Positions 7,007 to 34,982 of a DNA stretch of 64,000 nucleotides are shown here, one piece after another. Position numbers and translations under genes: made by a program. Every line of letters begins with the position of its first letter. The stretch's first letter is position 1. Origin of the DNA: Trebonia kvetii (GTDB taxonomy: Bacteria; Actinomycetota; Actinomycetes; Streptosporangiales; Streptosporangiaceae); contig NZ_RPFW01000004.1 in assembly GCF_007827045.1 (NCBI RefSeq), positions 62,001 through 126,000 on the forward strand. The letters are read 5' to 3'. The notes below the pieces were generated by a model. That model saw only the letters and a list, made by a program, of their open reading frames with translations, ran no database searches and was not told where the DNA came from.

Positions 7007-8068
7007 CTAGTTGTTGTCGTTGTCGTTCGACGACCCCGACCCCGACCCGGACCCAGACCCGCGGTTACCGCCAAGCCGGTCGAACAGCCCGGAAGCCGCC
7101 CGCGCCCCGGTCTCGGCAACCCCGCGGACGATTCCGGCCAGCGGGTCCTCGGACCGGTTCCACGACTCGCGGTAGGAGTTGGCCGCGTTCTTCATCTCTT
7201 CTGTGACCGAGGCGTCCCTGTCGGTCTCCCGCCGCGGGTAGTCCCCGGCCAGGATCGACTCGTAAGAACCGTCGGTCGCCCACCGGTCGAGCTCGGCGAA
7301 CCGCACCACGGCGAACGGGTGCGTGTTCCCCTGTAGCTGCAGCAGCTTCAGGATCGAGTCGCGCAGGTCGGGCACCGCGTCGTACTCGTGCGCCTGCTCG
7401 CGGAACGCGTCGGGGTTGAGCTCGGACAGGTAGGGCCCGCCCGCCAGCTTCATCAGCGCCCGCCGCGCGGCGTCCACGTCCTGGCCGGCCAGCAGCCCGG
7501 CCCGGTCACAGGACAGCTCGGACTTGCGGAACCACTCCTCGAGGCCCCAGATGATGGCCCGCAGCCCGAGGTAGCCGAGCGGCATCCAGGCGATCCTCGC
7601 GGCGAGCTGGATGAGGATGAGCATCATCGTCCGGTACACCGCGTGCCCGGACAGGATGTGCCCGAGCTCGTGGCCGATGACCCAGCGCAGCTCCTCCTCG
7701 TCGTGCAGGTTGACCAGGCCCGTGGTCACCACGACGAACGGCCTGTCGCGCCCGATCGCCATCGCGTTGACGATCGGCGACTGCATGACATAGCACTCGG
7801 GAACCTCGGGGAGGTCAAGGATGTAGGCGCCGTCCCGCACGAGTGCGTGGATGTGCGGGAACTGGCGCTCGGAGACCTTGACAGCGCCGGCCAGGAAGGT
7901 CAGCCGCAAGGCACGTTCGTTGATGAGGCCGAAGAGCTTGCTCAGCAGCACGTCGAAGCCGCTCAGCTTGCGCAGCGCGACTAGCGCGGAGCGGTCTGCC
8001 GGGTGCTCGTAGGCGCGGGACGAAATGCCCGTGAGCCGGACTCTGGCACGATCTGGCACTGAAGTCAT
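7007..8068 (-). CDS. M48 family zinc metalloprotease
   Basis: Membrane-linked peptidase of the HtpX/Ste24 type. The zinc motif HELGH is at residues 133-137, and the third ligand is probably the Glu of KSELSCDRAG (about 184). A hydrophobic stretch at about 146-176 (MMLILIQLAARIAWMPLGYL) can anchor it in the membrane. The C-terminus ends in a Gly-Ser repeat and an Asp/Asn-rich tail. It faces proB and is divergent from nadD. The substrate is unknown; the family includes both housekeeping and quality-control proteases. Confidence 0.9.
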   Translation of the reverse strand: MTSVPDRARVRLTGISSRAYEHPADRSALVALRKLSGFDVLLSKLFGLINERALRLTFLAGAVKVSERQFPHIHALVRDGAYILDLPEVPECYVMQSPIVNAMAIGRDRPFVVVTTGLVNLHDEEELRWVIGHELGHILSGHAVYRTMMLILIQLAARIAWMPLGYLGLRAIIWGLEEWFRKSELSCDRAGLLAGQDVDAARRALMKLAGGPYLSELNPDAFREQAHEYDAVPDLRDSILKLLQLQGNTHPFAVVRFAELDRWATDGSYESILAGDYPRRETDRDASVTEEMKNAANSYRESWNRSEDPLAGIVRGVAETGARAASGLFDRLGGNRGSGSGSGSGSSNDNDNN

Positions 8069-8199
8069 ATCTCGAATGGTAGACCCACCCGCGACCAGAA
8101 CGCATCGCCCGCAGGGCGTAACCCGCAGGGATTACCAGGAACGTTTTCCGGCTGGCCGGCCCGATACCATCTCGGTACGGTGCACAAAGGAGATAGCAG

Positions 8200-8823
8200 T
8201 TGATCAACGGGCGCAGGCGGGTCGGAGTGATGGGCGGTACGTTCGACCCTGTCCACCACGGTCACCTGGTGGCCGGCAGCGAGGTCGCGCACATCTTCGC
8301 GCTCGACGAGGTCATCTTCGTGCCGACCGGCGAGCCGTACCAGAAGTCCGGCAGGGATATCTCGAGCGCCGAGGACCGCTACCTGATGACGGTGATCGCC
8401 ACCGCGTCCAACCCGCGATTCTCCGTCAGCCGCGTCGACATCGACCGCCCGGGTCCCACCTACACCATCGACACCCTGCGCGACCTGGCGGACGCGAACG
8501 GTCCCGGCACCGACCTATACTTCATCACCGGGGCGGACGCGCTGGCGAACATCCTGACATGGCACGACGTCGACGCGCTCTTCGGACTCGCGCACTTCAT
8601 CGGCTGTACGCGTCCGGGCCACCGGCTGACCGGCCAGGGCCTGCCCGACGGCAAGGTGTCCCTGGTGGAGATCCCCGCCCTCGCGATTTCGAGCAGCGAA
8701 TGCCGCCACCGGGTCGCGGCGGGCGAACCCGTCTGGTACCTGGTCCCGGATGGCGTCGTGCAGTACATCGCCAAGCGCGGCCTGTACCAGCGGGCAGGTC
8801 AGAACAACAAAAATCATGAATAG
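8200..8823 (+). CDS. nadD: Nicotinate-nucleotide adenylyltransferase
   Basis: Transfers AMP to nicotinate mononucleotide in NAD synthesis. The nucleotidyltransferase motif [11 protein letters not shown] is at residues 12-22 and the ISSSECRHR motif sits in the C-terminal third; 207 residues is normal. A TTG start at 8200 is chosen because AAAGGAG lies 7 bases upstream. The order nadD, rsfS, histidine phosphatase matches Mycobacterium and other actinobacteria. Confidence 0.95.
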
Positions 8824-8949
8824 TCCGAACGGAATCGGCTGACTCTGGTCCCCAACACCAGGAACCGGCCACTCACGCAGCGCCACCGGTTGCGCCGCCA
8901 TGAGATCCTAGGGACAAGTAACCCCGACCGAGGAGGCCGAGTCAGCCAC

Positions 8950-9339
8950 GTGACTGCCACCGCAAGGGCCATCGAGCTCACCGAAATCGCCGCGCTCGCC
9001 GCGGCGGAGAAGCTGGCCAACGACATCGTTGCCTACGATGTCAGCGACCAGCTAGCGATCACCGACGCATTCCTGCTCTGCTCAGGCGCCAACGACAGGC
9101 AGGTCCGCTCGATCATCGACGAGGTGGAGCTGAGGCTCAAGCAGGCAGGGGCCACCCTGGTTCGCCGTGAGGGCGAGCAGGAGGGCCGCTGGGTGCTGCT
9201 TGACTACAACGATGTCGTGGTCCACGTCCAGAACAAGGAGGAGCGCATCTTCTACGCCCTCGAGCGCATCTGGAAGGACTGCCCGCGGATCGAGCTGCCC
9301 GATGTGGCGCTCATCGGCAACCCGGGCGCGGGGGAGTAA
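8950..9339 (+). CDS. rsfS: Ribosome silencing factor RsfS
   Basis: Binds L14 and blocks 30S-50S joining during starvation. The core of the family is seen (KLANDIVAYDVSDQLAITDAFLLCSG, then EGRWVLLDYNDVVVHV). GTG 8950 is preferred over an ATG at 8890, because AGGAGG at 8931-8936 lies upstream of it and the added residues are not conserved; the 13-base spacing is slightly long. The product is 129 residues. Confidence 0.93.
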   Translation: MTATARAIELTEIAALAAAEKLANDIVAYDVSDQLAITDAFLLCSGANDRQVRSIIDEVELRLKQAGATLVRREGEQEGRWVLLDYNDVVVHVQNKEERIFYALERIWKDCPRIELPDVALIGNPGAGE

Positions 9340-9341
9340 CG

Positions 9342-9962
9342 CTGAGCGCAGCCAAGCGGCTCGTGCTGTGGCGGCACGGCCAGACGACCTGGAACGCCGA
9401 GCACCGCTTCCAGGGCCAGACCGACATACCGCTCGACGAGACGGGCGAGGCGCAGGCCGAATACGCCGCGCGCCGCCTCGCCACCCTCAGACCCGATGCG
9501 ATCTTCGCCTCCGACCTATCCCGCGCGCTGCAGACCGCCGCGCCGCTCGCCCGGCTGACCGGCCTGCCGGTCGCGTCGGACAAGGAGCTGCGCGAGCGGT
9601 CAGGCGGTGACTGGGAGGGCCTGTCGGATCAGGAGATCCGCGAGCGCTACCCGGCCGAGCGCGCCACCTGGAACCCGCCCAACGGCGAGCCGACGGCCGC
9701 CGTCGCCGAGCGCGTGAACCTCGCGCTGAACAGGATCGCCAGCACCCTCGACGACGGGCAGCTCGCGGTCGTGGTCAGCCACGGCGCCGCGCTGCGGCTC
9801 GGCATGGAGCGGCTGCTCGGCCTGCCCGCCCTCAGCGTGAGCGTGCTCGGCCCGCTTGCGAACTGCTCCTGGTCGGTGCTGTCGCTGCAGGGCACCCACT
9901 GGCGGCTGCTCGAGTACAACGCGGGCACCCTGCCGGAACCAGTCATCGGCGACGACCGCTAG
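9342..9962 (+). CDS. Histidine phosphatase (phosphoglycerate mutase family)
   Basis: Phosphohistidine enzyme with the RHG motif (WRHGQTTWN) at the N-terminus, the acid ERSGGDWEG and the second histidine VVSHGAAL. By position it is the counterpart of the mycobacterial glucosyl-3-phosphoglycerate phosphatase gene, but the substrate is not certain. The start is a problem. GTG 9363 leaves only three residues before RHG and has no ribosome-binding site. CTG 9342 has GGGGGAG five bases upstream and restores the usual first strand (KRLVLWRHG), so the CTG start is preferred. Confidence 0.88.
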   Translation: MSAAKRLVLWRHGQTTWNAEHRFQGQTDIPLDETGEAQAEYAARRLATLRPDAIFASDLSRALQTAAPLARLTGLPVASDKELRERSGGDWEGLSDQEIRERYPAERATWNPPNGEPTAAVAERVNLALNRIASTLDDGQLAVVVSHGAALRLGMERLLGLPALSVSVLGPLANCSWSVLSLQGTHWRLLEYNAGTLPEPVIGDDR

Positions 9963-10181
9963 GGCCTCGTCAGCACGCCCGTTCTCCCGCATGGTTGTGG
10001 CAACGATACGGCTACAGGCGCATGGTTGCCGCAACCATGCGCCCAGACCACTCGCAAGGGGGGTGCCGGCCAGGCCTCTTTGCTTAGCAGGCGACCACAT
10101 TTTCATCTTTGCTTAACCGGCGACCACTTCCGCGTCCGATTCGCGGCAAATGTCCCGCCGCCGGTTAAGCAAAGATGAGTG
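9963..10181. repeat. Repeat-rich gap with palindromes
   Basis: There is no gene here. A perfect 27-base palindrome lies at 10017-10043 (arms GGCGCATGGTTGC). A second perfect inverted repeat has 19-base arms at 10104-10122 and 10159-10177 (CATCTTTGCTTAACCGGCG) around a 36-base centre that itself holds a small hairpin (10130-10146). A partial direct copy of the left arm and its flank lies at 10077-10098. The gap lies between two converging genes, so part of it may act as a terminator. Confidence 0.8.
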
Positions 10182-10496
10182 TTACGGGACGCCGGCCCGG
10201 CGGAGCAGCGCGGTGACGGCGGCGGCGCCGATCACCACGACGGGGAACGGGGCGCGGCGCGCCGCGAGCAGCCCGCCGACCAGCACTCCGGCGGGGCGCG
10301 CCCAGCCGGCGAACCCGTGGCCTGCGGTCAGCGCCGAGGTAGCGGCGAGCGCGATGAGCAGCACCGTGGCCGAGTCGGCGAACAACCGCTCCGCCGTTGG
10401 GGGCACAACCATCCGCCCGCGCAGCAGTGGCCCGGCCAGCCGCATCCCGTAGGTCAGCGCGGCAAGCGCCACGATGGCGGTCATGGGCAGCATCAC
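10182..10496 (-). CDS. azlD: AzlD-family branched-chain amino acid exporter small subunit
   Basis: Small integral membrane partner of AzlC. The 104 residues are mostly hydrophobic with about three to four membrane segments and a positively charged C-terminus. Its GTG start (10496) overlaps the azlC stop, with an alternative ATG one codon later, so translation is coupled. The azlC-azlD order and overlap are typical of LIV-E exporter pairs. The substrate is inferred from the family only. Confidence 0.85.
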   Translation of the reverse strand: MMLPMTAIVALAALTYGMRLAGPLLRGRMVVPPTAERLFADSATVLLIALAATSALTAGHGFAGWARPAGVLVGGLLAARRAPFPVVVIGAAAVTALLRRAGVP

Positions 10497-11356
10497 AAGC
10501 CTCCAGCCTGTCCCGCGCGGACCTTTGTTTCGTCCCCGGTGAACTGGTCGTCGTCAGCCTTGACCCGCGGGCCGCGGCGGCCGAAGCGCGAGCCGGCCCG
10601 CCACCCGTCTCGCCGGGCGGCGAGCCCGCCGAGCGCGGCGAGCAGCGGCAGTCCGGCGGGCAGCACCGGGGTGAGCGCGACCGCGATCACCGCGCCGGCG
10701 CCTGCCGCCTTTCTGATCGGCCGGGAGGTCAGGGCGGGCAGCGCGAGCGCGACCACGACGGCGGGGAACGTGGCATCGAGGCCGAACGCGGCGGTGTTCG
10801 TGATCATCGACCCGGCGAGCACGCCGAGCAGCACGGTCGTGTTCCATACCGCGAACAGCACGATGCCGCAGGTCCAGAACGCGAACCGGCGCCTGGCCCG
10901 ACTAGCCTGCCGCAGCGCGAAGGCGACCGACTCGTCGGTGATCAGGTGCGCGCCGACGATTCTGGTCAGCCAGCCGCGAACAGTGCTCCACGCGCCGCGC
11001 GCGCCGTCACCCGCGGCCGGACCGACCACGTCGGCGACCGCCAGGCCGTAGGGGAGCAGTCGGGTGTTCAGCACCGCCCCGGCCGCTACGGCCGCGACCG
11101 GCGACCCGCCCCCAAGCACCACGCCGATCGCCGCGATCTGCGACCCGCCCGCGAAGACGAGCACCGATAGCGCCACCGGGACCCACCACGGCAACCCGCC
11201 GGCGACGGCCGCCGCGCCGAACGAGAGCCCGACGATCCCGTCCGCCAGGGCAACCAGGGCGATGTCGCGGTAGAGCCTGGCATTCTCGGCGTCCGCGACA
11301 TCGCGGGACCGCTCGCGTGGCACTGCCGGCGAGCTTGTTCGCCATAGAGTCCGCAT
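10493..11356 (-). CDS. azlC: AzlC-family branched-chain amino acid exporter large subunit
   Basis: Polytopic membrane protein with the AzlC signature region (LSFGAAAVAGGLPWWVPVAL, then GGSQIAAIGVVLGGG). ATG 11356 is chosen because a promoter TTGACG (11392-11387) with a 17-base spacer and CATTAT (11369-11364) would start transcription at about 11357, making the message leaderless. A GTG at 11323 would give 276 residues. The C-terminus carries an extra basic and polar tail of about 40 residues. It is divergent from an XRE-cupin regulator gene, whose predicted sites overlap this promoter. Confidence 0.87.
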   Translation of the reverse strand: MRTLWRTSSPAVPRERSRDVADAENARLYRDIALVALADGIVGLSFGAAAVAGGLPWWVPVALSVLVFAGGSQIAAIGVVLGGGSPVAAVAAGAVLNTRLLPYGLAVADVVGPAAGDGARGAWSTVRGWLTRIVGAHLITDESVAFALRQASRARRRFAFWTCGIVLFAVWNTTVLLGVLAGSMITNTAAFGLDATFPAVVVALALPALTSRPIRKAAGAGAVIAVALTPVLPAGLPLLAALGGLAARRDGWRAGSRFGRRGPRVKADDDQFTGDETKVRAGQAGGL

Positions 11357-11399
11357 GTTCAATATAATGAACGACAGGCGGACGTTCGTCAAACCGAAC
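11357..11399. promoter_or_regulatory. Paired inverted-repeat operators between azlC and its regulator
   Basis: Two inverted repeats share one architecture, GTTCR-N6-YGAAC: GTTCA-N6-TGAAC at 11357-11372 and GTTCG-N6-CGAAC at 11384-11399, 27 bases centre to centre. The first covers the -10 of azlC (CATTAT, minus) and a perfect TATAAT on the plus strand (11363-11368). The second covers the azlC -35. This is the expected layout for repression of both genes by the adjacent XRE regulator. Confidence 0.65.
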
Positions 11400-11423
11400 A
11401 AAGCGGAGTCTGGAGCGAACCAC

Positions 11424-12023
11424 GTGACCCAGGAAGGCACCGAGGGAAGCCAGGGCCGGGCGGACCCCGGCACGCCGACGGACATCGTCGCGCTGGTCTC
11501 CATGTCGCTGCGCCGCGAGCGTGCCCGCGCCGCAGTGTCGCTCACCGAACTGGCCAGGCGGGCAGGCATCGCCAAGTCGACGCTGTCCCAGCTGGAGAAC
11601 GGCACCGGCAACCCGTCCCTTGAGACCCTGTGGGCTCTCGGCACGGCGCTCGGCGTGCCGCTCAGCCGCCTGATCGACCCGCCGCGGAGCGACATCCGGG
11701 TGATCCGTGCCGACGAGGGCGTGGTCATGCACGCCGAGCGCGACCCGTACGAGGCGGCGATGCTGGCGTCCTGCCCGCCGGGCGCGCGCCGCGACATCTA
11801 CCGGGTCGGCGCGGCGCCCGGCACCGCCCACCTGGCCCGGCCGCATACCGCGGGCACGGTGGAGCACCTGATACTCGGCAGCGGCCGCGTCCTCGCCGGA
11901 CCCGAGGGCGAGGCGGTCGAGCTCGGCCCGGGCGACTACCTGCGCTACCCCGGCGACGTCCCGCACATCTTCCACGCGCTCGAGCCGGACACGGTCGGCA
12001 TCATCGTCATGGAACACGTCTGA
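11424..12023 (+). CDS. XRE-family regulator with C-terminal cupin domain
   Basis: HTH_3 DNA-binding domain near residues 25-85 (LTELARRAGIAKSTLSQLEN) followed by a sensory cupin (about 110-199; PGDYLRYPGDVPHIF). GTG 11424 is preferred, with GGAG 8 bases upstream and 199 residues; an ATG at 11355 would add 23 uncharacteristic residues that overlap the operators. Being divergent from azlCD, it probably controls the exporter and itself. Small-molecule binding by the cupin is an inference from the family. Confidence 0.9.
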   Translation: MTQEGTEGSQGRADPGTPTDIVALVSMSLRRERARAAVSLTELARRAGIAKSTLSQLENGTGNPSLETLWALGTALGVPLSRLIDPPRSDIRVIRADEGVVMHAERDPYEAAMLASCPPGARRDIYRVGAAPGTAHLARPHTAGTVEHLILGSGRVLAGPEGEAVELGPGDYLRYPGDVPHIFHALEPDTVGIIVMEHV

Positions 12024-12040
12024 CTGTCACAACGTCGCAT

Positions 12041-12085
12041 CGCGAACAGCCGGGCAGGCATCGGTTCTCTGCCCGGCTGTTCGCG
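12041..12085. terminator. Bidirectional terminator hairpin
   Basis: A perfect 17-base stem (12041-12057 with 12069-12085, arm CGCGAACAGCCGGGCAG) with an 11-base loop, between the XRE regulator and the converging glycosidase gene. Confidence 0.8.
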
Positions 12086-12131
12086 TAATGCGTTACGCGT
12101 GTCGCCTAATGCGTTCGGCGTGGCGTGCCGG

Positions 12132-13655
12132 TCAGCCCGTCGTGAGCACCACGATCGACTCGGCCGGCACGGTGAGTCCCTTGGCGACCGCCGTGGCGGT
12201 GGTGACGCCGGCCACGGTCCTGGTGTTGGACGAGTTCTGGCCGGCCGCCTTGTAGCTCAGCGTCTTCAGCTTGCCGTGCAGCGAGGAGGCGAACTTGAGG
12301 TGGATGCCCGACTTCGTGTTGGTGTTGATGAGGGCCACCGCGACCTTGCCGTTGCTCACCGACTGGAAGGCGAGCACGTTCGCGTTGTTGGACGTGGAGA
12401 GCGTCCGCAGCTGAGCGCCAGGCTTGGTGAGCGCGGAGACGAGCAGGTAGCCGATGTACGGGGTCTGCGGCACCGGCTTGGCCGCCGAGGTGAACATCCC
12501 CTCGTCCGGCTTGCTGCACTTGGACCCGATGTTGCCGTAGCTGTTCAGCTGCCACCAGTCGACGCTCTCCGCGCCCGCCGCCAGCCAGGACAGGGCGTCA
12601 CCGGCGGCGAACAGGGCGCCGACCGGCGTGCACGGGATGGTCGTGGGCAGGTAGGTCACGCCCGTCTCGCCGACGACCATCTTCGCCGCCGGTGCGAGGG
12701 CGTTGAGCTGCGCCCTGGTCTGCTTGTACACGGGTGCGATCTGGAACAGCGACTTCAGCACCGCCTGAGCGGTCGGGTTCTTGCCGCCCATGTTGCCGCC
12801 GAAGTTGAACGGGTACCAGTGCACGTCGACGAAGCTCAGGTACTTCCTGACCGCGGGAATCACCGTGTTGTTCCACTCGGTGTTGTCGCCGACCGAGGCG
12901 CCGCCGACGTTAGCGCCGAACGCCCACGGCACGCCGAGCTGCGCGCTCGAGCTGACGGCCTTCATCGCGGCCATGAACCGCGGCGCGTGCGCGGCATAGG
13001 AGGTCGCCATCGTCGTCATGCCGGCGTCGAGGCCCTGCACGTTCATCGGGCAGTCCGCGTTGACGCCCTCCTTGTAGCCCTTGAAGTCGGCAGGAGCGGT
13101 GGCGAGCTCGTTGTTGACCTCCCAGCAGCCGTAGTTCTCGTTGCCGATCTCCCACAGCCCGACCTGCTGGCCTGCCTTGGTCTTGGACTGCTTCACCCAG
13201 GCCGCGGCCAGGGCGGGAGTGCCGGAGCCGTAGTTGACCGTCACGAAGCTCTGCGCGTGCAGCGCCCTGGCGTTCTTCGAGAACAGGCCGAAGTACAGGG
13301 CGTCGTGCACGGCGCACTTCGCGCTGTATTCGGCGGGCGCGCTATTGGGCAGGCACCTGCCGATGTCGGTGTTGGTCTTGAAGTTGAAGTAGTCGGCGGT
13401 GACCCCGCCGCCGTAGCGGATCTGGTTGATGCCCGCCTTTTTCATCAGCCCCTGAATGATGGCGCCGCTCGACCCGGTGTAAAGGGCGTCCCATGGTGCG
13501 ATGTTCATGCCCAGTGGCCCGCCGGCGAGCTTCACGCCGACTGCCGCCGGTGCCGTCGTTTGCGCCGAGGCCGGTACTGTAACGGCGGCGAGGAGCGCGA
13601 GTGCGCCCCCGGCCCCCGCGAACAGCATGCGACGTCGGCCGCGCAAAAAGATCAT
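12132..13655 (-). CDS. Secreted glycoside hydrolase, alpha-L-arabinofuranosidase-like
   Basis: The product of 507 residues has a signal peptide (RGRRR, then a hydrophobic run, ending near VPASAQT at residues 27-33). Clan GH-A features are visible: acid/base Glu173 in WEIGNENYG and a probable nucleophile Glu330 in VVGETGV, about 157 residues apart. Both contexts resemble GH51-type arabinofuranosidases and related retaining enzymes. A small beta domain ends the protein (about 415-507). Start ATG 13655 follows AGGAG by 8 bases. It probably acts on plant polysaccharide outside the cell; the exact family is uncertain. Confidence 0.8.
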   Translation of the reverse strand: MIFLRGRRRMLFAGAGGALALLAAVTVPASAQTTAPAAVGVKLAGGPLGMNIAPWDALYTGSSGAIIQGLMKKAGINQIRYGGGVTADYFNFKTNTDIGRCLPNSAPAEYSAKCAVHDALYFGLFSKNARALHAQSFVTVNYGSGTPALAAAWVKQSKTKAGQQVGLWEIGNENYGCWEVNNELATAPADFKGYKEGVNADCPMNVQGLDAGMTTMATSYAAHAPRFMAAMKAVSSSAQLGVPWAFGANVGGASVGDNTEWNNTVIPAVRKYLSFVDVHWYPFNFGGNMGGKNPTAQAVLKSLFQIAPVYKQTRAQLNALAPAAKMVVGETGVTYLPTTIPCTPVGALFAAGDALSWLAAGAESVDWWQLNSYGNIGSKCSKPDEGMFTSAAKPVPQTPYIGYLLVSALTKPGAQLRTLSTSNNANVLAFQSVSNGKVAVALINTNTKSGIHLKFASSLHGKLKTLSYKAAGQNSSNTRTVAGVTTATAVAKGLTVPAESIVVLTTG

Positions 13656-13812
13656 TCTGCTTACTCCTAGTTTCGGTCCTGACCCCGAGGACAGAAATCC
13701 AGCACAGAACGCCAGATCTCTAGGCAAAGCAGGCGGGGAGCCTTACCCTCTTCCACTGGCAATATACAGGGATGATTAGCGGACGTTGATATGGGCCATG
13801 CGATGCGGGAAA

Positions 13813-14460
13813 TTACCTTCGTGCGATCGTTTCCGCGGCGAGCCGCGCCTCTTCGGCGACCAGGTCGGCGTTGATCTGCGCGGCGGCGAATGCCCCGGCC
13901 GCCGCAGCCGCGCCGACCTGCGCGGACAGGTCGGCAACGTTCCCCGCCGCCCACACGCCGGGCACCTCGGTACGCCCGGCGGCGTCGACGGGAATGTGCT
14001 CGCCCATACCCGAGGGATGGACACTGGCGCGCAGGCCGAGACCGCCAAGGAATCCGCCCCGCGCCACCATGCGGGCGCCGACCGCAACCACCGCACGCGG
14101 CACGACGCCGCCGTCGGCGAGCCGCACGCCGGCCAGCCGGTCGCGGTCGATCGCCAGCCCGGTCACCCGGCCGTCGATCACCCGGATGCCGCGCGCGGCC
14201 AGTTGCGCCGCCTGCGCCGCGTCGAGCGCGGTCTCGTTCCCGAAGTACACCACGTCGTCGCTGAGCTGCCGGAACAGCAGCGCCTGATGCACCTACAGCG
14301 GCCCGGTGGCGAGCACGCCGATGGCCCTGTCGCGGACCTCCCAGCCGTGGCAGTACGGGCAGTGCACCACGTCCCTGCGCCACCGCTCGCGCAGCCCCGG
14401 CACGTCGGGCAGCTCATCGACGAGGCCGCTGGCCACGAGCAGCCGCCTGGCGAGCAAACA
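13813..14460 (-). pseudogene. Thioredoxin-reductase-like FAD oxidoreductase, truncated and interrupted
   Basis: One frame encodes the middle and C-terminal parts of a pyridine-nucleotide-disulphide oxidoreductase: HCPYCHGWEVRDRAIGVL, VHQALLFRQLSDDVV, and the FAD-binding end VPGVWAAGNVADLSAQV. An in-frame TAG at 14293-14295 splits it exactly inside a conserved stretch. About the first 95-100 residues (FAD Rossmann GxGxxG) are missing: the homology starts at LLARRLLVASGLV, directly beside the operator of the divergent XRE gene. The upstream deletion plus the stop codon make a functional product unlikely. Confidence 0.8.
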
Positions 14461-31270: not shown

Positions 31271-31957
31271 TCAGCACGAGGCGACGATCCGCACGTCCGT
31301 GGCGGTGCTGACCGGGATCCGGACCTGACTTGAGGCGTTGGGCTGCTGCACCGTGTACGCGCCGCCGCTGCCGCTGATCAGGGTGCCGCAGACAGTTCCC
31401 TGCGGTGTGTCGACGCTTATCAGCGCCGGCGGCTGCGACGGTGCCCACCACCAGGTTCCGATCGCGGCCACGAAGAGCAGTAGCGATGCGCCGATCAGTA
31501 GCTTGGCCCTGCGGAGCTGACCAGACGCCGTGAGCGCGCAGGCGATTTCAAACTGGCGGACCCCGCCATAGGTGGCGACGACCTCGGTCAGGTTGAGTTT
31601 CGCCGGCGTGCCCGCGGCCGCCTGCAGCGCGAGCCACAGCCCGGCGATGGCCGCGAGCAGTCCGCCAAGTGCCAGGATGGTCAGCGCGATCAGCCAGCCG
31701 GTGGTGACGTCGCTGGCCGCGGCCGGCCCCTTCAGTAGCAGTCCGCCCGTGGCCAGGGTCACGAACGCGGCGAGCCCGGTGCGCCATTTCTCGGCCGCCG
31801 CCTGAGCCGACGGCAGGCTCTGGTCGCTTAGCTGCTGCCAGCGGGCCTGGTCCTGCAGGCTGGCCACCGTGGGGCCGGCCGCAGGCTTGCGATACTTGGG
31901 CGGCCGCTGGCCGGCCGTCGGCGCGACCGGTCCCGATGGCACCACGGGCGTCCCCAT
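31271..31957 (-). CDS. Membrane protein of the CHAT operon, function unknown
   Basis: A 228-residue protein. A Pro-rich cytosolic-looking start (about 1-55) is followed by a hydrophobic stretch at about 62-80, a long one at about 85-118 (TGWLIALTILALGGLLAAIA), a soluble stretch, then a third at about 155-172 (LLIGASLLLFVAAIGTWWWA). A C-terminal domain of about 55 residues with beta character and two Cys follows. It overlaps the preceding gene by TGATG, so the two are translated together. It could anchor the CHAT protein, be its cleaved substrate, or itself act on the membrane. No named family is recognised. Confidence 0.75.
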   Translation of the reverse strand: MGTPVVPSGPVAPTAGQRPPKYRKPAAGPTVASLQDQARWQQLSDQSLPSAQAAAEKWRTGLAAFVTLATGGLLLKGPAAASDVTTGWLIALTILALGGLLAAIAGLWLALQAAAGTPAKLNLTEVVATYGGVRQFEIACALTASGQLRRAKLLIGASLLLFVAAIGTWWWAPSQPPALISVDTPQGTVCGTLISGSGGAYTVQQPNASSQVRIPVSTATDVRIVASC

Positions 31958-32391
31958 CAGGCTTCCGGCTGGACTTCGACGCGGAAGTTGATGCCGCATC
32001 CGTACTTGACGCCATCCGGGCGTCCGGCATGCGCTTCGGTGCAGGCGCAGGAAACCGTCAGCGGCACGTAGTCGTCGTCGGCCTGGACAGACTCCGTCCG
32101 GCGCCAGCCGAGCGTCGTCATCGCCTCGCCGGTGACGACGTCGAGCACCTGGCTGAACTTCACGTCGTCCGTGCAATACGGACACGTTCCCGTCACCGTC
32201 GCGGTGCTGATGCCGCTCGCGCTGCGGATGCTGGCCGTGAGCTTGCCGTTGAGCAGGTAGTCGTAGGCGACTTCGGTCCAGCGGTACGCGTTCGGCGCGT
32301 CCGTCTGATAGGCGACGGGCGGCGGACTGGCGGAACCGGCGGAACCGGCGGGATTCGCCTGACCGCCGGAACCGGGATCTGCGGACACCAT
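31957..32391 (-). CDS. Cys-motif protein of the CHAT operon, function unknown
   Basis: A 144-residue protein. The first 30 or so residues are Gly/Ser/Pro-rich and probably disordered. The rest holds CPYC (about 80-83), CAC (about 124-126) and GCG near the end, a spacing that could bind zinc or form disulphides. The ATG follows AGAGGGAG at good distance. It lies 35 bases after the CHAT gene and overlaps the membrane-protein gene. A linker or substrate role next to the protease is plausible but unproven. Confidence 0.75.
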   Translation of the reverse strand: MVSADPGSGGQANPAGSAGSASPPPVAYQTDAPNAYRWTEVAYDYLLNGKLTASIRSASGISTATVTGTCPYCTDDVKFSQVLDVVTGEAMTTLGWRRTESVQADDDYVPLTVSCACTEAHAGRPDGVKYGCGINFRVEVQPEA

Positions 32392-32426
32392 GATTGTCTC
32401 CCTCTTTTCTCGCGCCGTGACGGCGC

Positions 32427-34982
32427 TCAGACAGCTCCGACGGTGATGAGCGGTGCCCAGCGGGACAGGTAGCCGTTCCTGTGCCGCGGGTCGGCAAGGA
32501 AGCGGCGGGTCATCGCGCGCAGCGCCTCCGGCATCGTGGACGCGGGCAGCCGGTGCAGGACTCCGTTGAGGAACCGGCTCGCGATCGGGTCGTCGGCCAG
32601 TTCGCTGGTCGTGGCGAGCACTGCCAGGCTCCCGCGGGTAAGCGCGATCGTGGCCAGGGTCAGCGGGTCGCTGTCCGCCGATCCGGGTGCGTTGGCTCCC
32701 CAGCAGGCGGCGAGCACGAGCTGGTCCGGGGTCCGCGCGTCAAGGAGTGCGGCCGGGGTGAGCAGCACGCGCGGCGCGAGCTCGAGGTAGTGCACCATTC
32801 CCGGCACTGGCCGGCCGTGTCCGGCGATGACGATCAGGTCATGCCGCCGCCCCGACGTGACGGCCGTCAGCGCCACATCGGCGGAGGAGAACGCGTCAAG
32901 CGCCACCCGCTTGTCGTCGGCGAACGCGACGAGGTCGTGGTGCTTGATCTGCGTGCTGCGCCACTGGCCGACCGTGCGCGGCCTGGACATTTCCCGTGAC
33001 CCGCGCACATGGTCCGCCAGCGTGAGTGACGGCGCGACGGCGAGCGTGAAGCGCTCGCCGAGGAACGCCTCGCCGACGGGAACCGCGGGCCACGGCAGCG
33101 CCCACAGGTCGCCGAGCGGCACGATGAGCAGCCGCGCGTCGTCCGCCAGTCCCTCGAATGCCTGGGCGGGCAGCAGGTCCGCGAGCGCGCTCACCTCGCC
33201 GGGCCGGGCCAGCGGATGCAGGCCATCGCGTGCCAGCGAGGAAACCAGCCGCTGAACGGCCGCGGAGATCTCCCGCAGGCCGCTCCGGGCCGGGCGGCCG
33301 GGCCCGGCGCTCAGCCAGGCCAGCTGATCCCCCGCACCGGGGACCAGCGTCACCAGCAGCACGTCCGCGTTCGCGGCGGCCCGGTCGAGCAGCGGCACTG
33401 CGTCATCAGGCGAAAACGACCGGTACAGGGCGGCGGCGATGTCGGCGATCGCCCGCTCGGCTCTTTCCGGCATCCCGCCGCGCAGCGCGAGCCGCCCGAC
33501 GAGCCTGGCCCGCCACTGCGCGCTTGCCATGTTCGCCGCGAGATCGGCGCCGTCGGCCGGCAGGCTGCTCGCCGTCGCCAGCACCTGCGACGCGAGCTGC
33601 GCGTCGGCGGCCGCTGCCGCCGGAGGGATCTTCTCGAGGAGGCCGGCCAGACGGCGGCCCGCGAGGTTCTCGAACACGGTGATGAACGCGCCGGGATCGG
33701 CGTTCCGTACCGCGGCCCGGATGGCGGCCGAGTAGACCATGGCGAACCGGCGGAGGTATTCCTGCTGGTACTGATGCAGGTCCTGGGATGACCGCATCGC
33801 CTCGATCGCCAGCACGGCGTCGACGCGCGCCCGCGTCTCCGCCGCGGTGTCCGCCATCGCGCCCGCCGCCCGCGCCATCCCGTCGAGCGCCGTCGCGGAA
33901 CTTGGCAGGTCCCCGAGCTCCCTGTTGGCCTCCAGTGCGCCCTCGAACAGCTGGTACGCCTCCTGCGGCAGGTCAAGCGCGTAGGCGCAGCGGCCAAGAC
34001 CGTACAGGGCCCACGCCTCGCCGCGGCGGTAGCCGCCTTCGGCGGACATTTCATAAGCCCGCAGGTAGTAGCTCCTTGCGCCGTCGAGGTCAGCGAGCCG
34101 CAGACATACCTCGCCGAGGGCGTCGCACGCGTTGACCGTTCCGATCAGCGTTCCCGACCGGCCGGCGGCGTCAAGCGCGCGGGTCAGGGCGGCCTTCGCC
34201 TCGTCCAGCCGGCCGCGGCTCCGGTACAGGTCGCCAAGCTGCTGTGCCGCGTTCACGATGCCGACGTCCGCCCCGAGTGACTCACTCAGCCGCAGCGCCT
34301 CGGCAAGCGCACGTTCGGCCGCATCGTCTTCGCGCAGCCGGACCAGTGCCTCACCGCGCCCGGTCAGCGCCGCGGCAAGGTAGACGCGCTCGTCCAGGTC
34401 CCTGGCCAGGTCTGCCGCCCGGCCGAACGTATCGGCGGCCTGCCCCGCCGACCCGGACAGCAGCGTCAGGTAGCCCACCGGCACCAGCGCGCGGACCAGG
34501 CCGAACCGGTAGCTCGCCGCCTGCGCCAGCTCCATGGCGCCCTCGTAGTGTGCGGCCGCCTCCTCGAACCGGTCGGCCTGCCGTGCCGCGTCACCCAGCC
34601 CGACGAGGGCGTCGACCACCGGCAGCGGGTGCAGCCCGTCCTCCTGGGTCGCGCGGAGCGCGGTGAGCGCGCTCCCTGCCGCCGCGGTGTCGTTGGCGAT
34701 CAGCGCGGCGTCGGCCGCATTAGTCAGCTCCACCTGACGCTGCCAGGTGTCCCAGGAAACCAGGAACTGGTCGCCGGGCATCGCGGGCACCGCCGGGTCC
34801 GTCAGGAAATGGAACCGTCCCCGCAGCCCAAGCGCGCCGGGCACCGGGATCCGGTCGGCGAGCGATTTCGCGAGCTCGCCCGCGGGGCCGCCAGTCCAGG
34901 ACGCGTGCAGCAGCCGAGACACGTCGGCCGCGCTGCGGTTCTGTCCCCCCACGCAGTCAGTATGCCGAAGCATGCCGTCCAT
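32427..34982 (-). CDS. TPR-CHAT protein (caspase-like protease)
   Basis: An 851-residue protein. TPR-like helical repeats fill about residues 95-420 (repeated A-x(2)-LG-x(3)-R patterns), and a C-terminal CHAT domain spans about 560-851. The catalytic dyad fits H722 in IAGHG and C760 in LAACWG, the usual CHAT spacing. CHAT proteases cut proteins after activation, and in several systems the TPR part senses a partner. Starts at ATG 34982, ATG 34973 or GTG 34952 are all possible. It is first in an operon with a Cys-motif protein and a membrane protein. Confidence 0.88.
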   Translation of the reverse strand: MDGMLRHTDCVGGQNRSAADVSRLLHASWTGGPAGELAKSLADRIPVPGALGLRGRFHFLTDPAVPAMPGDQFLVSWDTWQRQVELTNAADAALIANDTAAAGSALTALRATQEDGLHPLPVVDALVGLGDAARQADRFEEAAAHYEGAMELAQAASYRFGLVRALVPVGYLTLLSGSAGQAADTFGRAADLARDLDERVYLAAALTGRGEALVRLREDDAAERALAEALRLSESLGADVGIVNAAQQLGDLYRSRGRLDEAKAALTRALDAAGRSGTLIGTVNACDALGEVCLRLADLDGARSYYLRAYEMSAEGGYRRGEAWALYGLGRCAYALDLPQEAYQLFEGALEANRELGDLPSSATALDGMARAAGAMADTAAETRARVDAVLAIEAMRSSQDLHQYQQEYLRRFAMVYSAAIRAAVRNADPGAFITVFENLAGRRLAGLLEKIPPAAAAADAQLASQVLATASSLPADGADLAANMASAQWRARLVGRLALRGGMPERAERAIADIAAALYRSFSPDDAVPLLDRAAANADVLLVTLVPGAGDQLAWLSAGPGRPARSGLREISAAVQRLVSSLARDGLHPLARPGEVSALADLLPAQAFEGLADDARLLIVPLGDLWALPWPAVPVGEAFLGERFTLAVAPSLTLADHVRGSREMSRPRTVGQWRSTQIKHHDLVAFADDKRVALDAFSSADVALTAVTSGRRHDLIVIAGHGRPVPGMVHYLELAPRVLLTPAALLDARTPDQLVLAACWGANAPGSADSDPLTLATIALTRGSLAVLATTSELADDPIASRFLNGVLHRLPASTMPEALRAMTRRFLADPRHRNGYLSRWAPLITVGAV

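Follow-up and report, generated by a model that had tools for sequence, protein, structure and literature searches.

In bacterial gasdermin systems, a caspase-like protease stands beside a membrane-acting partner. In Craspase (type III-E CRISPR), the TPR-CHAT protein Csx29 joins a TPR array to a CHAT domain with a His and Cys dyad. The EACC1 two-gene system has a small one-helix membrane protein encoded 5' of a caspase gene, and the EACC1 protein was proposed to act as sensor or anchor for its caspase (Kaur et al., 2020; PMC7159879). CATRA (Burroughs and Aravind, 2020) is named in PMC8195603 as a caspase-dependent ternary conflict system. Here we describe, in a window of 64,000 nucleotides from Trebonia kvetii (the whole stretch of DNA analysed), a three-gene module in which a caspase-clan protease accompanies a constant membrane component, a variant of known logic built from an unnamed gene set.

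The three genes all lie on the minus strand, as do the features listed below, in the order TPR-CHAT protease, Cys protein and membrane protein. The protease gene (34982-32427) encodes 851 residues, with a TPR region at residues ~125-394 (33801..34610; Pfam TPR_12, E 1.6e-24; PDB matches to LGN/Pins-like TPR) followed by a CHAT domain (PF12770; 32436..33146), which scored 42.1 bits against the curated Pfam cut-off of 24 in a genome profile search, yet was absent from a plain Pfam scan of the protein. An intact-looking dyad had been reported in the preliminary description, and both residues were confirmed at codon level, His722 in the motif AGHGRP (32817..32819) and Cys760 in the motif AACWGA (32703..32705). 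By domain score and dyad, the protein is assigned to the CHAT peptidases (clan CD) and is predicted to be proteolytically active. It shares with Csx29 the TPR array preceding CHAT and the same His and Cys; moreover, the nearest solved structures to a profile of the CHAT domains that accompany the small proteins elsewhere are Csx29/TPR-CHAT (E ~1e-14), with His and Cys aligned. The partners differ, however: beside the present protease stand a three-helix membrane protein and a Cys/His protein. Membership in Craspase was rejected, as a RAMP/Cas7-11 gene was not found in this genome.

After a spacing of 35 bp follows the gene for the Cys/His protein (P0002; 144 aa; 31957..32391), which is predicted to bind zinc and carries CPxC, CxC, H and GCG motifs. 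Its stop codon overlaps by 1 base the start of the membrane-protein gene in TGATG (31955..31959), and similar overlaps occur in several relatives. The membrane protein (P0003; 228 aa; 31271..31957) has three hydrophobic segments that match AlphaFold2 helices, at residues ~62-80 (31718..31774, 3' of a conserved AExWRxGLA), ~88-115 (31613..31696) and ~150-173 (31439..31510), and ends in a five-stranded beta domain at residues 179-225 (31283..31423; pLDDT 85-90), predicted to be extramembrane, with conserved C190 and C228. The remaining elements of the preliminary description, namely the CPYC, CAC and GCG motifs of the 144-residue protein, about three membrane segments in the 228-residue protein and the TGATG overlap (31959-31955), were thus all found as described. 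Downstream, on the same strand, a small ORF at approximately 31134-30955 resembled DUF2795 weakly (E 0.004, short of the cut-off); with nothing pointing to its membership, it was left out of the module.

For neither the Cys nor the membrane protein was a credible match obtained in Pfam, NCBIfam, PADLOC or solved structures, and relatives of the two small proteins (n = 15 and n = 17) gave noise-level matches alone in family libraries. Within the Cys protein, C70, P71, C73, C115, C117, H121, G131, C132 and G133 were invariant among 17 aligned relatives; the CPxC, CxC, H, GCG set was found in 17/17 of these and, by pattern, in 53 of 59 loci collected as described below. Because this Cys/His set is conserved, the protein is predicted to bind zinc and is probably zinc-ribbon-like; a fold search with its structure model returned no match.

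Relatives of the membrane protein keep the AExWRxGLA motif ahead of segment 1 and the two cysteines of the C-terminal beta domain, and a CG..C pattern was found in 51/59 loci. The AlphaFold2 model has three long helices, and its five-stranded end domain is confidently predicted, but overall confidence is modest (pLDDT 74.6 for the membrane protein, and 70.8 for the second model). A fold search with this model gave weak small-barrel (Hfq-like) matches alone (E ~0.02), which were not used as homology. At four loci (L040, L041, L049 and L095) the protein stops directly after segment 3, without the beta domain; sequencing errors are possible there, but these cases suggest that the domain is at times dispensable. 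The layout of a helix followed by membrane segments recalls SLATT proteins, and one of 15 relatives matched NCBIfam SLATT_1 (E 0.0077). P0003 differs in having three segments and an outer domain, and homology was rejected on an hhalign probability of 2-3% versus 1.5% for a reversed control. Likewise, assignment to a gasdermin system was rejected, P0003 having three membrane helices and no gasdermin-model match in Pfam or PADLOC.

Outward searches that started from the two small proteins and left CHAT out of the queries gathered 59 annotated loci, not all of them independent, as near-duplicates such as L029/L051 and L049/L095 are included. The Cys and membrane genes were adjacent and co-directional in 59/59 loci, as a fused reading frame at one of them (L038), and a caspase-clan protease was within reach of the pair in 54/59 (38 CHAT, 16 C14). 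Of the 38 loci with a CHAT gene beside the pair, 20 have it upstream and co-directional, 13 upstream and divergent, and 5 downstream; the His and Cys dyad was kept in all 38 proteins. The other 16 loci carry a giant gene encoding an N-terminal caspase (Peptidase C14), an iHD-CE/HD-CE region and a C-terminal wHTH-HSP90-associated domain, three of these genes being read by Pfam and the remainder by our own models; one giant protein also has a weak Hsp90-type ATPase match. By motif search, FxGHG was kept in 15 of these 16 C14 proteins. By our own models, neither protease was found at L038, L107, L031, L105 and L119 (5/59), the last three of which are partly degraded in appearance. At L107 (G694:C1), an ORF at 405-1040, ~6 kb from the pair, shows, by eye only and with no confirmation from a profile, a CHAT-like His...Cys pattern. 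At L106 (G968; 7691-14308), the pair lies beside a CHAT gene whose N-terminus resembles that of the window's CHAT, and that gene adjoins a second protein of 1305 aa with a caspase-like start.

Given that the two small proteins are without annotation in every library searched, the possibility that unrelated genes are neighbours by chance, or that the annotation is at fault, had to be considered. Genomes carrying the pair hold just 0-7 CHAT genes each, and therefore a linkage of 59/59 and 54/59, from searches in which CHAT was not used, is far beyond chance; furthermore, CHAT sits in four orientations relative to the pair, which argues against mere operon inertia. Pairwise distances of CHAT covary with those of the membrane protein (r 0.64) and of the Cys protein (0.54), and the distances of these two covary with each other (0.74), values that include a contribution from shared host ancestry and that were reached in 0/2000 permutations. 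The linkage, the conservation of dyad and motif and this co-variation rule out a chance neighbourhood, and we consider it extremely improbable.

The preliminary description had called for a search for the three proteins together across genomes, and the same order was found in a second genus of the family and in Mycolicibacterium, Streptomyces, Nocardia and others. It had also asked whether the small partners occur solely beside CHAT genes; they do not, as 16/59 pairs adjoin the C14-iHD-CE-Hsp90-type giant instead; the module is wider than a TPR-CHAT operon, with the protease logic retained. On the pair tree, the C14 partners group in a single clade (SH-aLRT 96) amid CHAT partners, and hence the pair was retained through at least one swap of protease type. 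What stays constant is therefore the membrane component, the pair, and what varies is the caspase-clan protease.

This combination of a constant pair with an exchangeable protease suggests that the protease acts through the pair. The reading that we favour, to which we assign a probability of about 0.42, is a protease-controlled membrane switch for cell death or defence in which the pair is both target and membrane output. Its constant part would be the translationally coupled pair, in which a three-helix membrane protein is joined by a protein predicted to be zinc-ribbon-like. Its variable part would be a caspase-clan cysteine protease, TPR-CHAT in the window and C14-iHD-CE-Hsp90-type elsewhere, with sensing probably done by the other domains of the protease (repeats or the Hsp90-type part). 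In the resting cell, the protease would be bound and held or restrained at the membrane by the pair. An invader or damage would trigger the sensor part and switch on the His-Cys protease, which would then act on the pair, cutting either the membrane protein in a cytosolic stretch or the Cys protein; the three-helix protein would thereby become an effector, and membrane damage would bring the cell to a stop. The suggestion of the preliminary description that the membrane protein may be an effector released by proteolysis is likewise kept here as a hypothesis. The predicted outer beta domain would be odd for a simple pore-former, although a few relatives are without it.

The main rival holds that the pair is sensor or anchor rather than effector: the outer beta domain and the zinc protein would sense a signal from the envelope or the cytosol and turn on the protease, which would have its substrates elsewhere. 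We regard this as possible, if somewhat doubtful. It would account for the conserved predicted outer domain with its two cysteines and for a pair that stays constant while the protease changes, and it is like the proposal made for the EACC1 protein (PMC7159879). It fits less well with L040, L041, L049 and L095, which retain the pair and CHAT without the outer domain, and with proteases that bring large, variable, sensor-looking repeat or Hsp90-type parts of their own. The likeness to EACC1 is otherwise one of design, an unvarying small membrane component next to a caspase-superfamily protein whose domains vary, mostly in actinobacteria (PMC7159879), whereas the present module has three helices and a separate Cys/His protein, is usually 3' of the protease and uses CHAT or C14. 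With three segments, another gene order and no Pfam match to the EACC1 model, membership in that system was rejected. The module proteins also match no Pfam model named for CATRA, a comparison made by model name alone.

Returning to the pair as target and output, the module would share by analogy with gasdermin systems a caspase-like protease beside a putative membrane-acting partner. We put forward, as a tentative and rather unlikely extension, gasdermin-like death without gasdermin, in which the unnamed pair would be held or released by interchangeable caspase-clan proteases, so that TPR or Hsp90/HD-CE sensors could plug into one membrane output. The preliminary description had held that the operon matches no named type; a conserved module of protease and partners with an intact dyad indeed fits none of the named defence types that could be checked, and no paper on this gene set was found in a literature search that did not reach the defining papers of several related systems. 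Two families unnamed in Pfam, NCBIfam and PADLOC are accordingly tied to caspase-clan proteases in Actinomycetota, many Streptomyces included. To our knowledge, few substrates of bacterial CHAT and caspase proteases have been described; should the pair be the target of the protease, it would provide natural candidate substrates for both, and a protease-gated membrane output distinct from gasdermin.

The closest counterpart, in a second genus of the same family (L014), has the three genes in identical order, with 61% identity for CHAT and 59% for the membrane protein; its Cys gene is interrupted by a frame break, and the copy may therefore be decayed or mis-assembled. A scan of close relatives with the CHAT protein alone gave no match, and the module was found in 0/7 relatives of the same genus. 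Relatives of the small proteins were found on plasmids of Mycolicibacterium arabiense, Streptomyces, Gordonia terrae and Rhodococcus opacus, and on genome contigs of Streptomyces, Nocardia, Actinokineospora, Paractinoplanes, Actinacidiphila and Microtetraspora. In Streptomycetaceae, 39/298 genomes carried relatives, a few weak ones being false or degraded; a class-level draw of 395 genomes gave 11 with relatives, and a phylum-level draw added one further convincing locus (L107). No relatives of the small proteins were found among viral contigs and phage records, and within what was searched the module is limited to Actinomycetota. On the M. arabiense plasmid NZ_AP022592.1 (L028), tblastn places the Cys protein, the membrane protein and CHAT at two sites apiece, and the module may therefore be present there in duplicate. 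In Actinacidiphila paucisporea (L052; 8441-9309), the membrane gene is broken and the beginning of a CHAT-type gene runs straight into the end of a Cys protein, which looks like a decayed copy.

The confinement to Actinomycetota would also suit a circuit of regulated proteolysis that serves filamentous actinobacteria in development or under stress, for instance one acting on a membrane-held regulator, with no immune function. Such a circuit would agree with the flanks as well. The genes flanking the module in the window are metabolic-looking, and a PADLOC scan of 100 flanking genes at 31 loci, nearly all from Streptomycetaceae, showed no enrichment of defence genes over 77 random-locus genes, the matches being chiefly generic kinases and proteases. 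A location in defence islands, which the preliminary description had raised as a question, was thus not observed in this sample, and a defence role is presented as a hypothesis. We nevertheless consider a developmental circuit unlikely: the module is patchy even inside a genus, is found on plasmids and is at times degraded or next to insertion sequences, all of which would be odd for core development. One copy (G085) adjoins, by eye, transposase and toxin-antitoxin-like genes, the Gordonia copy has restriction-modification genes nearby, and two loci have EAD1, TIR, macro or trypsin neighbours, namely L038 (EAD1-trypsin and a ThsA-like EAD1-macro) and L041 (EAD1-TIR).

At L041 (G147:C5; 3-1142), an EAD1-TIR-ATPase gene lies near a pair whose CHAT gene is downstream. 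At L038 (G192:C50; 982-4281), EAD1-ThsA-macro and EAD1-trypsin genes are convergent to the fused Cys-membrane protein, an arrangement that suggests a trypsin-type variant of the same logic.
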